Part shown: positions 3,545-16,400 of the stretch, piece after piece | Position numbering within the stretch: the first letter of the stretch is position 1 | How the letters are laid out: every line of letters begins with the position of its first letter | Translations under genes and position numbers: made by a program | Notes under the pieces: generated by a model | Databases searched by the model: none | Told to the model about the DNA's origin: nothing | What the model saw: only the letters and a program-made list of their open reading frames with translations | Source of the DNA: Mesoplasma lactucae ATCC 49193 | GTDB lineage: Bacteria > Bacillota_I > Bacilli_A > Mycoplasmatales > Mycoplasmataceae | NCBI RefSeq assembly: GCF_002441935.1 | Contig: NZ_CP023668.1 | Location: 372,001 to 436,000 of the forward strand | Direction of reading: 5' to 3' | DNA length: 64,000 bases

Positions 3545-3568
3545 GTCATCCCTCTTTTCTTACAATAA

Positions 3569-3596
3569 GAAAGGAAGCTCAAATGAGCTTCCTTTC
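3569..3596 (-). terminator. Leader hairpin of the rimP-nusA operon
   Basis: A perfect 12-bp stem with a 4-base loop, GAAAGGAAGCTC/GAGCTTCCTTTC, lies between the promoter and the rimP start. On the minus strand the stem is followed by a short U-rich stretch (TTATT), so it could act as an attenuator of the operon, or as a plain 5'-end stabilising hairpin. It is inside the predicted transcript, about 25 bases before the rimP start. The regulatory role is inference. Confidence 0.6.
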
Positions 3597-3625
3597 AAAG
3601 ATATTTCACTTTTAAGATTTCTTTT

Positions 3626-3654
3626 ATTGTATACTTAAAAGTTTTTCTTTTCAA
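3626..3654 (-). promoter_or_regulatory. Promoter of the rimP-nusA-infB operon
   Basis: On the minus strand a -35 box TTGAAA (3654-3649) and a -10 box TACAAT (3631-3626) are separated by exactly 17 bases. Transcription would start near 3619, giving a leader of about 75 bases that contains the 12-bp hairpin. This is one of the cleanest housekeeping-type promoters in the window. Confidence 0.75.
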
Positions 3655-3667
3655 CATTTAAAACAAG

Positions 3668-3702
3668 AAAAAACCAAAGGTTAATTACTCCTTTGGTTTT
3701 TT
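3668..3702. terminator. Bidirectional intrinsic terminator
   Basis: A 13-bp stem AAAAAACCAAAGG/CCTTTGGTTTTTT with a 9-base loop has a U-run when read in either direction. It lies directly upstream of the rimP promoter and would stop minus-strand transcription from the hairpin-dense region before the operon. Confidence 0.8.
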
Positions 3703-4075
3703 CGAATTCGAAATGATAAAAACGTTTTAATAAATTATTTTGGCATAACAACTTATTGAAATTATTAATATCATTTTTTTCTTAAATCAAGATTATTCTC
3801 CTCATCTTGAAATAAGAAGCATAAATCCTTTTAAAAAAGAACTGAGGCGAAATCAATTCTTAATTAATTAAGACTTAAGTTTGAAAAGAACAGAAAAGTT
3901 ACATAAGAATAACACCATTGAGATTTTTTATTTGCCTTAAATAAAAGAGATGGTGATACAACTAATCTTTCTAATCGGTGTGAAGAAAAGCGGTTCTTCA
4001 CAACCAATATTGTATCTTAATTATCTTATTTCAAGAATATTGTATTCAAAGATTCTTTGTGGCTTAGTTAAAAAG

Positions 4076-4613
4076 AAAAAAGCCAAGAAAGACTTTTGAT
4101 CTTTCTTGGCTTTAAAAATGTTTAAAATTTCTTTGATTAATAACCACAACATTAATAGACAAAGAGAATTTTTAAGTTTTTAATGCTTAAACAAGCCATT
4201 ATTAGAAACTTGTTTAACAATATTTGTACAAATATTAAAAGTTCTGATTAATAAAAATTATTTGCAACTAATTTTTATTAATTAAACTTTATGTTTCTCA
4301 AATAATATCTACCAGTTATATTTGAGAAGTTTGGAAATTTTTACTAGTCCAATACGTTTCTGACGGGATTATAGTTAACACTAAGTTCAAAAACGCCTAA
4401 GGAGTTTATTATTATCAACAATAAAAACATAACTGACAAAGGGTATGTTTTTATCATAATTTTTTAAAATGTTTAATAGAACATCTAAACCGTGACAGGA
4501 TGGTTTAGATTATTTTTTATAAATACAACACCATGGCTAGTTAAGCGTCTACTAGCCACCATTTTTAGCGCGGGATTGTGAGGCTCATAATACCTCACGG
4601 TTAATATTCTATA
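4076..4613 (-). ncRNA. Candidate structured RNA (unverified)
   Basis: Read on the minus strand, a possible promoter (TTGCTA at 4635-4630, 16-base spacer, TATAGA at 4613-4608 with an upstream TG) would start a transcript near 4601. It would run through about nine stem-loops (4578-4598, 4534-4558, 4483-4510, 4422-4453, 4295-4328, 4248-4281, 4219-4236, 4187-4217) and end at the strong U-tailed terminator 4079-4113, giving roughly 525 nt. No coding frame fits inside. The size and density of stems resemble large ornate bacterial RNAs, but I do not recognise a family; this is inference. Confidence 0.3.
4079..4113 (-). terminator. Strong intrinsic terminator
   Basis: A 14-bp perfect stem AAAGCCAAGAAAGA/TCTTTCTTGGCTTT with a 7-base loop. 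On the minus strand it is followed by TTTTTTC, a good U-tract; on the plus strand the tail is poor. It therefore ends a minus-strand transcript although no protein gene precedes it for over 1 kb, apart from the small membrane protein, which has its own terminator. Confidence 0.75.
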
Positions 4614-4676
4614 ACATCCACACTCTTTATAGCAAGAGTTTTTACAAAGTTTTATTTGTTTTTCACGCTATAAGTA

Positions 4677-4724
4677 AAAAAATAACTAGAGCTACGACTA
4701 TAGGCCATACTCTAGTTATTTTTT
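4677..4724. terminator. Bidirectional terminator-like hairpin
   Basis: A 15-bp perfect stem AAAAAATAACTAGAG/CTCTAGTTATTTTTT with an 18-base loop, U-tailed in both directions. It divides the hairpin-dense region into a left and a right part. Confidence 0.65.
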
Positions 4725-5196
4725 GAAGTGATTAATTAATAAATTAAATATTTATTTTAAGGTTTTTAAAAAAAGGAAATACCTTGAAAGCAACCACTTC
4801 ATTATTATTTTAATTTGTTTTTTCTTTTTTAAGAAACTACAAGATAGAAAATATATTCTATTAGAAAAAGATTGTTAAGCTATGAAATACTAATGAACAA
4901 TCTCTTATAAAAATTAAGAAAGGAGGTTTAAATAATGAAAACATAATAACAATTTAAACTCATATGAAAATAGAATAATAGATTTTTTAAATAATACTAA
5001 TTTGATTTTGAATGTGCGCAAGATTCCCTGCGGCTTGATGGACTTTATTTTTTTGTTTTGATATATTTAGCGAATTTTTCTAGTTAGTTACATAAGCAAG
5101 TCCAAGAACTTATGCACCCTTTAATTTTACTTCAAGCCTAATTTGAAAAGAAGTTCTTTAATAACACTTTTTTGAAATAATTTTGAAATAAAAAAA

Positions 5197-5224
5197 TCTC
5201 AAGCGGACAGCTAGTCGCAAGAGA
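5197..5224 (-). terminator. Terminator of the small membrane protein gene
   Basis: On the minus strand the stem TCTC-TT-GCG/CGC-TT-GAGA (with a TT/TT internal mismatch) is followed directly by TTTTTTT. It lies about 50 bases after the stop of the 109-residue membrane protein and should end that transcript. Confidence 0.7.
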
Positions 5225-5275
5225 CTTCTTAATCATATCTTAAAATAGTTTAAAGATAACTTTTAATTTGTTTTT

Positions 5276-5605
5276 TTATTTATTATTAATAACTCCACCA
5301 ACAATAAACATAACTAAACTTGCAATAAAACAAATAACAATTCCAACTCCAAGTCAAATCATTTCACGACGATATGATTTGATGTTAAATTTTGGATCTT
5401 CAACAACTTGTTTTTTAACTTTTAATGATTTATAAACCATTACTCCAATTAAAAACAACATTACTGCTAAGAAAAATCCCCCAAATCCAAAAAGAAGTCC
5501 AACTTCAGTGTCATAGTTTTTCGGATTCACTGGAGAAAGTGGTGGTGTAGTAGTTTCTAGAGTAAGTTCACCATTTGTTGATTGAGTTTCACCTCATTTA
5601 AGCAT
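5276..5605 (-). CDS. Small two-helix membrane protein, function unknown
   Basis: A 109-residue protein I do not recognise. The first 36 residues are polar with a Thr/Pro-rich segment (ETTTPPLSPVNP). Two hydrophobic segments follow, about residues 38-58 (GLLFGFGGFFLAVMLFLIGV) and 84-104, joined by a basic loop (KSLKVKKQVVEDPKF). Two TGA codons are read as Trp. The ATG at 5605 follows a GAGGG site. The gene is single, between the hairpin-dense noncoding region and a divergent HNH gene, and has a 10-bp leader hairpin at 5635-5663 and a U-tailed terminator at 5197-5224. Membrane location is predicted from hydrophobicity alone. Confidence 0.75.
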
Positions 5606-10055: not shown

Positions 10056-10715
10056 TTAAGCTTCACTATCAGCTTGTAATAGATAATTTTGTTTTTGTCC
10101 AATTAAGGTTGCTCCAGTTGAAATAATATATCCAACAATAAAACATGAAAACATTCCAATCATGTAGCTATAGTTTAAAGAACCAGTTTTTATTTTGAAT
10201 CCTTTGTTAATGTTTTTATTATCATCATAATCTCAGTATGGGTAATCATCTAAACCAGAATGTGGATAGTCATTTCCATTTCCATTTTCTCAATAACTAA
10301 AAGTATCGTTAAAACGAACAATTGCTTCGGCTGCACTTGCAATCATTAATGCCATTGCAATAAATGTAATTACAATCACAATAATTGTTACTGTTCAGAA
10401 TCGGTTACTTTTATCTAAGAATAAACCAAATAATGGGATTAAAAGTGAAATTCAAACCACAATTAAACTTGGCGCTCCTAATCAGTAAACAGTTTTTGCA
10501 TCAACATAATCAATCATTGATAATTGACTTAATTTTACTTTAAAAGAACCAACTAGAATTTGGGTTGTATCGTTTTTTGAACCTTGACCCAAATCATAAA
10601 TAACTCCTCTAAATCCAATTACTTCAAAAGCAATTGTTGCAAGAATTGCAAAAATTAAAATTCCACCAAATGATCATAAATATTTTAAATTAACTTTTTG
10701 ACGTATTTTATTCAT
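10056..10715 (-). CDS. Four-helix membrane protein, function unknown
   Basis: A 219-residue protein with hydrophobic segments at about residues 11-33, 68-88, 93-120 and 175-200, a short acidic-aromatic loop near residue 140 (DDYPYWDYDD) before the last helix, and a soluble C-terminal tail. I do not recognise a family. The ATG at 10715 follows AAAGGAG. The gene is flanked by terminators and is probably transcribed alone. Confidence 0.7.
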
Positions 10716-13489: not shown

Positions 13490-16400
13490 CTAAAAGTCGA
13501 AACTAATTTGTTCATCATTTGATAATGAGTCAACAATATTTAAATCTTCAAAGATTTTCATTTGCGTATTTGTTACTTGAGTTCTTGCTTTTAAATCATT
13601 TACAGAAGTAAAATTCTTTTTATCTCTTGCAACAATAATTGATTTTGCAGCAGCTTCTCCTAATGAATCAATGATATTAAATGGAGGTACAATGTATTTT
13701 TCTCCAGTTTGTGGATCAACTTCAACCCCGAATCTCATCGCTTTTGAAGTATTAAAATCAATATTCTTGATTTTAATACCACGTGCAAACATTTCTAATT
13801 CAACTTCATAAACAGTTTTTAAATCTAATTCTTTTTTAGTGACATCAATATTGTGATTTTGTTTATAAATAATTTCTCTTAAAGCTTGTAAAACAGCATC
13901 ATAACCGCCAAGAGTAGTTTTTAAATCAAAAGCATCAGCTCTTGTTGAGAAGTAAGTTGCATAATATTCTTCTGGATAATAAATCTTGTATCAAGCAACA
14001 CGATAAGCCATTAAAACATAAGCTGTAGCGTGTGCTTTTGGGAACATATATTTGATTTTTAAACATGAATCAACATATCATTGAGGAACATTATGTTCAC
14101 TCATTAATTGAATTCATTCAGGTTTTAACCCTTTTCCCTTACGAACAGATTCCATGATTGTAAAGGCTTCATGAGGAGGTAATCCTTTATTTAATAAATA
14201 AACCATAATGTCATCACGACAACCAATAACAGTTGAAATGTTGGCTTGACCTTCTTTAATTAAATCTCTAGCATTTCCTAATCAAACATCAGTTCCATGT
14301 GAAAGTCCAGAAATTTGGACTAAGTCTGCAAAAGAATGTGGTTTAGTTTCACGTAACATCCCGCGCACAAATTCAGTCCCAAATTCAGGAATTCCAATTG
14401 CTCCAGTAGTTTCACCATTAATTTGTTCTGCTGTAATATTTAAAGCATCTAATCCATAAAATAATGAATAAACTTTTGGATCGCTTGTTGAAATACTAAT
14501 TGGATCAATTCCAGTTAAATCTCTTAACATTTTTAAAGCAGTTGGATCAACATGTCCTAAAATATCCATTTTTAATAAGTTATCGTGAATTGAGTGGAAA
14601 TCGAAGTGAGTTGTTAATCAAGCAGCACTTTGATCATCTGCTGGATAGTTAACTGGTGTGAAATCTTCAATTTCATATTCTTCTGGAAGAATGATAATTC
14701 CTCCAGGGTGTTGTCCTGTTGTTCTTTTAACACCTTCAGCTAAAGCTGCTAAGCGTTCTTTTTCAACTTTTCTTGGTTGATGATATTCATCTCTTGTTTT
14801 TTCAAAGTAACCAGCAACATAACCAAACGCTGTTTTTTCAGCAACTGTTGAAATTGTTCCAGCTCTAAAAACGTTATGTTCTCCAAACATTTCTTTTGTA
14901 AAGTTATGTGCGTTTGGTTGATATTCTCCAGAGAAATTTAAGTCAATATCAGGAACTTTATCTCCATCAAATCCTAAGAAAGTTTCAAACGGAATATCGT
15001 GCCCATCTCCAATTAAAGGTGTTCCACATTTTGGACAATCTTTTTTTGGTAAGTCATATCCACAACCAATTTCTGATGGTGTATCAAAATCTGAATATTT
15101 ACAATTTGGACATCTATAGTGAGCTTTTAAAGGATTAACTTCAGTAATATTTGAAGTTGTAGCAACAAATGATGAACCAACAGAACCACGAGAACCAACT
15201 AAATATCCATCTCTATGGCTTCGTTGAACTAATTTATGTGAGATTCAATAAATAACCGCAAATCCATGTTTAGTAATTGAACCAAGTTCTCTTTCTAAAC
15301 GTTTTTCAACGATTTCTGGAAGAACTTCTCCATACATTTCATGAGCATTTTTATAACATTCCGCTCTTAACATTTCATCAGCATTATCAATGTTTGGTGG
15401 ATATGAACCATCTTTAACAGGTTCAATTCCTAAATCAATCATGTCAGCAATTTTATTTGAGTTTTCAACAACAATTTCGTTAACTAAATCAGGATTATCT
15501 AATCATCTAAATTCTTCAATCATTTCATCAGTTGTTCTCATGTATTGATCTGGATAATCTTTAACTTTACCTTTGTAATCAAATAATGGGTGGTTTTTTC
15601 CACCTAATCCTTTGGCATTAATATAAACTTCACGAATGATTTTTAATTCAGGATCAACATAGTGAGCATCACTAGTGGCTACGACCATTTTTCCTTCTTC
15701 TTTAGCAACTTTTAAGATTAAAAGAATAACATCTTTTAATTCTTGCTCTGTTAAAGAATCATTTTGTAATAAGTGCTTATAAACAGCAAGCGGTTGAATT
15801 TCTATGTAGTCATAAAAACGAATATGTTCTCTTAATTTTTCAACAGTATCAGTTCTTGCAGATTCAAAAACTTCTCCGTTAACACAACCAGAACCTAATA
15901 AAATATCATGATTTTTATCTCTCATTTCCGCTAAAGTAGATTTTAAGATTCTTGGTGAACCATAAAATTCTTCAGTATGAGATTTAGAAATTAATTTATA
16001 AAGTTCTTTTAATCCAGCTTGATTTTTAGCAAGAACTGAAACATGAGCCCCACGAGTTCTTACAAAGTTAGCATCATCTTTGTGGTCTTTTGGACGAATT
16101 AAGTTTCAATCACTATCTTTAATAACTGGATATTCTTTTTTAATATCAGTTCACATACGTTCAAAAATATCTGTTAAAACATCAGCATCATAATCTCCAC
16201 GGTGAGCTACTTTATCGTCATATAAAATCCCAAGTTTTTTAGCAACAGTTCCTAAACGGTGGTTTTTTAAACTAGGTCAATAAGCTCTGGCAATTGATAA
16301 AGTATCAATTACAGTATTTTCTAGTGGTGGATATCCCAATTTTTTGGCATAACTTTGTAAAAAGTCGAAGTCGAAGTTGGCGTTGTGGGCTACTAAAATA

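Follow-up and report, generated by a model that had tools for sequence, protein, structure and literature searches.

The window, which is the whole stretch of 64,000 nucleotides of Mesoplasma lactucae ATCC 49193 that was analysed, harbours a noncoding gap at positions 3545-5275, with a G+C content of 25%. The gap is bounded by the start codon of rimP and by the stop codon of a gene encoding a small membrane protein of 109 aa. Its left part (3545-3654) is occupied by the leader and promoter of rimP, and the interval studied here is the remaining 3655-5275. The source genome (G000) comprises 837 kb and was sampled as stretches, about 660 kb. The rRNA region is the only other long gap in the window, in agreement with an earlier sequence-only reading, which had described the interval as exceptional for its length. 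The following features were found, with the strand given where one is assigned:

3545-5275: entire noncoding gap from rimP to the 109-aa membrane protein gene; its two flanking genes are on the minus strand
3569-3596, minus: rimP-leader terminator/attenuator hairpin followed by TTATTG, outside 3655-5275
3626-3654, minus: promoter-like site for rimP-nusA (TTGAAA-17-TACAAT), a consensus match only
3667-3703: perfect hairpin of 14 bp whose arms carry A6/T6, resembling a terminator in either direction
3713-3780, plus: long imperfect hairpin TGATA...TATCA followed by T7
3783-3817: hairpin TCTTaaaTCAAGA/TCTTGAaatAAGA
3919-3953: hairpin CACCAT...ATGGTG with an AT stem inside
3979-4002: 9-bp hairpin TGTGAAGAA/TTCTTCACA
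4079-4113, minus: perfect 14-bp hairpin, terminator-like on this strand, tail TTTCTTTTT
4187-4217: 9-bp hairpin
4247-4282: 14-bp hairpin, all AT
4295-4328: 10-bp hairpin
4421-4454: 11-bp hairpin
4483-4510, plus: 9-bp hairpin, terminator-like on this strand, tail TATTTTTT
4534-4566, plus: GC-richer 8-bp hairpin TGGCTAGT/ACTAGCCA, then CCATTTTT
4677-4724: perfect 15-bp hairpin with A6/T6 arms and a loop of 18, terminator-like in both directions
4905-4947, plus: orphan gene start, TATAAA, AGAAAGGAGG and ATG AAA ACA TAA (3 codons)
5197-5223, minus: hairpin with T7 after it, probably terminating the 109-aa gene, sequence read directly
5276-5605, minus: small membrane protein of 109 aa, with no relatives in 60 genomes of the family or in a class-wide sample of 198

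The gap contains no ORF reaching 80 aa under code 4, and the ten longest reading frames had no match in Pfam, which confirms for 3655-5275 the previous statement that no credible protein gene is present. Six-frame peptides of the gap compared with 1.8 Mb of related DNA gave nothing above the reversed-sequence control. At the DNA level, the search for relatives in the genus, the order, phages, plasmids, one viral-contig pattern and a rimP-guided contig scan returned only AT-rich chance matches, and the best local matches equalled those of the reversed sequence. Rfam covariance models, run at gathering and permissive thresholds, yielded only chance matches in the interval and thus no known family, including no known sRNA family. 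The reported absence of rnpB, ssrA and SRP RNA from the interval also held, and all three were found elsewhere in the genome.

The hairpin at 3569-3596 is the conserved leader attenuator of the rimP-nusA operon. Alignment of 13 genomes shows it conserved immediately before rimP, and three of its base pairs have changed on both sides. Among the family leaders (window 3569-3596; L022, L023, L025, L028, L029, L033-L036, L039, L047 and L048), the tail CTTTCTTATTG is conserved, and the stems vary and compensate. Naville and Gautheret 2010 (PMC2965389) reported a family of such attenuators in rimP leaders, marked by a GGGc...gCCC motif.

In the gap and in dinucleotide shuffles, we counted the perfect stems whose loops measure 3-30 nt. 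We found 20 stems of at least 7 bp (10.9 in shuffles), nine of at least 9 bp (1.8), six of at least 10 bp (0.4) and four of at least 12 bp (0.1). From these counts, about half of the weaker stems are expected by chance and the strong ones are not. The sequence-only reading had listed at least 18 inverted repeats; the excess is real and the strong stems stand beyond chance, while about half of the weaker ones are at chance level. Its description of the stems as unrelated to each other was borne out, with no direct-repeat family and no k-mer above the 95% level of the shuffles. Inspection for the conserved core sites that an integron attC array would have at its hairpin ends likewise gave no recurring k-mer. 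Seven out of the forty hairpins of the window with at least 9 bp and at least 2 GC lie inside 3655-5275, where about one is expected by area.

The comparison of folding stability with shuffled controls, which the same reading had proposed, revealed a strong excess on both strands. Fold z-scores (plus/minus strand) were -9.1/-9.4 in one calculation and -9.3/-10.8 in another, over the whole 1.7 kb, and 3800-4630 alone reached -7.5. Across these 1.7 kb, local folding was more stable than in the shuffles by 6.0 kcal/mol per 100 nt on the plus strand and by 7.6 on the minus strand. Coding controls gave z-scores of +0.3 to -3.2, and a 2-kb AT-rich noncoding gap from another genome of the family showed no excess (-0.3 to -0.6). 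The hairpin density, 5.2 per kb, is similar to that of short terminator-bearing spacers of the same genome, and some short spacers with terminators or tRNAs are equally hairpin-rich per base. The unusual feature of the gap is its length, rather than its hairpin richness per base.

The excess does not extend to longer distances, as stems with 31-300 nt between their arms were not in excess over shuffles in the gap. Being confined to loops of at most 30 nt, it indicates that the hairpins are independent. The 3' arm of the hairpin at 3783-3817 (3805-3817) can alternatively pair with 4024-4036 over 13 bp, 206 nt apart; we rejected this pairing as a candidate switch, since one such pairing of at least 12 bp is near the 0.5 expected by chance. 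Permutation of unit order was also dropped as a test of long-range architecture, given that 16S rRNA failed it too. Stems and unpaired positions of the gap have similar G+C contents (0.26 and 0.24), and no purine skew was detected among the unpaired bases. In the control RNAs, stems were G+C-richer (rRNA, RNase P RNA and tRNA), and a clear purine skew was present in rRNA and RNase P RNA. The ratio of G-U to A-C mismatches was 13:15 in the fold of the gap and 17:21 in that of its reverse complement, and the sole hint of a strand is a slight folding advantage on the minus strand. As the excess is purely local, no motif recurs, stems are not enriched in G+C and neither strand is clearly preferred, the evidence argues that the interval is composed of independent hairpins and is not one large ornate RNA.

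We counted three terminator-like sites with loops of up to 8, including the rimP leader, where shuffles of the scanned stretch gave 0.6. By inspection, T-tract hairpins were found at 3667-3703, 3713-3780, 4677-4724 and 5197-5223. At least five terminator-like hairpins, in both orientations, are present in the interval. Promoter-like sites in the gap were only mildly above shuffles (21 versus 15.1, sd 3.5). The orphan start at 4905-4947 combines a strong promoter, a Shine-Dalgarno site and an ATG and resembles real gene starts elsewhere, with a stop after three codons and no gene behind it.

The sister genome (G001, the only genus-mate compared) is distant, with rimP 47% identical, and has the order polC-nitroreductase-rimP without the gap. 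Two genomes from a further genus of the family carry a single small membrane protein gene between nitroreductase and rimP, with a spacer of about 0.1 kb. The gap, the 109-aa gene and the genes for HNH, FtsX and others, from nitroreductase to rimP, make up a lineage-specific block.

As our tentative first choice, rated at somewhat under an even chance, we propose that a lineage-specific series of short, terminator-ended untranslated units makes up the interval; both the transcription of the units and their shortness are inferred. Several independent short-range hairpins would act as intrinsic terminators, unidirectional or bidirectional. Each of a few short untranslated transcription units, whether small RNAs or what is left of lost small genes, would be closed by its own hairpin. 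These units would be flanked on one side by the terminator of the 109-aa gene, and on the other by the rimP-nusA promoter with its attenuated leader. A hairpin density like that of terminator-bearing short spacers, a fold excess above that of the 2-kb gap in the other family genome, the orphan gene start and the sister genome without the gap also speak for such units. Among the three options of the sequence-only reading, the array of terminators is the best supported, given the at least five terminator-like hairpins in both orientations and the excess at short range only. However, promoter-like sites are only mildly in excess, no known sRNA family is present, and perfect stems of 14-15 bp are not what simple decay would be expected to leave next to unrecognisable genes.

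A neutral, relaxed spacer without function at the RNA level is a possible but less probable explanation. Its hairpins would be built by template switching during replication, in which one arm is copied into its reverse complement, giving short perfect stems of unrelated sequence. There is published documentation that template switching both creates hairpins and maintains them (PMC8794818). The mechanism is presumed here, and as an origin of the hairpins, which we consider possible and on balance unlikely, it would fit nearly as well as the short terminated units, because the stems are perfect, local, and neutral in composition and strand. Perfect stems restricted to short range, the absence of a recurring motif, the mismatches without clear strand bias, and a stem composition and purine content that differ from those of the rRNA and RNase P RNA controls are all in favour of such a spacer. 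Nevertheless, the 2-kb noncoding gap of the other family genome shows no excess, and several stems in the interval carry terminator tails.

The gap may also be what remains of a mobile element, or of small genes or type I toxin-antitoxin loci, with terminators and a start surviving and the genes lost; we regard this as unlikely. The lineage-specific block is absent at this site in the sister, the orphan gene start is present, the 109-aa protein is weakly similar (below cut-off) to a pilin-like family of ICEs, and type I toxin-like loci elsewhere in the genome are equally hairpin-rich. Nonetheless, no protein remnant was recovered with Pfam or from the 1.8 Mb of related DNA, the likeness of the DNA to the toxin-like loci is AT-rich background only, and no phage or plasmid match of substance was detected. 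The gap does not contain a small hydrophobic ORF with a Shine-Dalgarno site, and its sole strong Shine-Dalgarno site (about 4919) opens the frame of three codons. Decay after gene loss, another of the earlier options, is possible; one gene start survives, protein remnants were not recovered, and the sister genome lacks the gap.

Possible type I toxin-antitoxin loci were observed at L090:13934-14740, L087:15192-15650 and L079:6536-6800, as tiny hydrophobic ORFs with Shine-Dalgarno sites adjoining terminator-like hairpins. The candidates in L087 and L090 are homologous (84% over 112 nt). Two tRNA genes with equal score and length, at L087:14528-14598 and 15066-15136, belong to a nearby duplicated block in one 1.5-kb gap, and their anticodon, read by eye, is UCC. 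Three 2'-deoxyguanosine riboswitches (2dG-I, Mesoplasma florum type) were also found, at L078:5783-5846, L092:11098-11159 and L092:12890-12953.

A single large structured ncRNA with an OLE-, ROOL- or GOLLD-like function, probably on the minus strand and co-directional with its neighbours, is unlikely. The fold excess is strong over more than 1.5 kb and slightly stronger on the minus strand, the interval adjoins a small membrane protein gene, and the same genus harbours two long, syntenic noncoding elements. However, pairing is not in excess beyond loops of 30 nt, stems are not G+C-enriched, loops are not purine-rich, terminators lie inside the interval on both strands, and Rfam gave no match. 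Identity with OLE, ROOL or GOLLD was dropped, with no match at the gathering threshold. The suggestion of a family of structured RNAs was not supported for this interval either, as no family likeness, motif, stem or loop composition signature of RNA genes, Rfam match or relatives that could show covariation were found.

The two syntenic elements, A and B, are other long gaps (1.2-2 kb) of this genome shared with the sister genome:

Element A, L086:16605-18610 (G000 336605-338610) and L113:4479-6186 (G001): 1.7-2 kb noncoding, from a recD2-like gene to small membrane protein genes
Element B, L082:13260-14651 (G000 173260-174651) and L190:13689-14912 (G001): 1.2-1.4 kb noncoding, upstream of a lipoprotein gene

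Element A shows weak collinear similarity between the two genomes, with a best stretch of 70% over 140 nt (E 1e-8); its sequence has mostly diverged, and motif and position are kept in both species. On the strand that runs in the direction of recD2, it possesses 6-13 UCUCUC blocks, which are predicted to be unpaired. CTCTC occurs 20 times versus 2.7 expected in one genome and 8 versus 1.1 in the other, and its reverse complement 1 and 0 times. On the recD2-co-directional strand the unpaired probability of the motif is 0.86 and 0.88, versus about 0.4 elsewhere, and on the other strand 0.54 and 0.49. No denser GAGAG/CTCTC cluster than element A occurs in the sampled part of G000, and in G001 it ranks close to the top. 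GAGAG was found within 22 nt upstream of ORF starts in 30 out of 538 and 43 out of 616 cases. No motif-bearing gap was present upstream of recD2 in 19 genomes of other genera, and element A is therefore considered genus-specific. A 219-aa protein encoded in the window (10056-10715, minus strand) is weakly similar (30%, E 5e-6) to the small membrane protein encoded next to element A in G001. The two genomes share in element B a stretch of TTTTTATAAGTAATAAAATT, and both have a hairpin with CATCCGA close to the promoter.

It is unlikely that the gap represents the latest addition, beside elements A and B, to a genus-specific class of ncRNAs (1.2-2 kb) lying between co-directional genes, one of which would act through its UCUCUC as a sponge or regulator of GAGAG, and blastn of the interval against elements A and B gave no convincing similarity among the matches listed. 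In such a class, the UCUCUC blocks would be complementary to GAGAG, common just upstream of start codons. To our knowledge, no long regulatory RNAs of this unpaired-UCUCUC design have been described in Mollicutes.

The interval indicates that a compact Mollicute genome can carry a long, uncatalogued, hairpin-dense spacer, and its own significance is modest. Fold z-scores alone would wrongly point to a giant RNA. The control search carries more weight, as it exposed syntenic long noncoding elements of the genus, one of them with a conserved unpaired UCUCUC motif.

Compared with known systems, the gap resembles OLE, ROOL and GOLLD in being longer than 0.5 kb, hairpin-rich and noncoding, but differs from them in lacking an Rfam match, conservation, and a long-range pairing excess, i.e. 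helices closing multi-branch domains. Type I toxin-antitoxin loci, which seem to be present elsewhere in this genome, are likewise hairpin-rich, intergenic and provided with terminators; unlike them, the gap has no small hydrophobic ORF bearing a Shine-Dalgarno site. The hairpin at 3569-3596 lacks the GGGc...gCCC of the Naville and Gautheret rimP leader, its stem reading GAAAGGAAGCTC, but similar to that leader it is a hairpin with a U-rich tail just upstream of rimP and shows compensatory changes across the family. Regarding the intrinsic (Rho-independent) terminators of Mollicutes, many strong hairpins of the gap differ in having no T tract, and many crowd one gap without genes between them; nevertheless, several combine a hairpin with a T tract as these terminators do, some of them bidirectionally.
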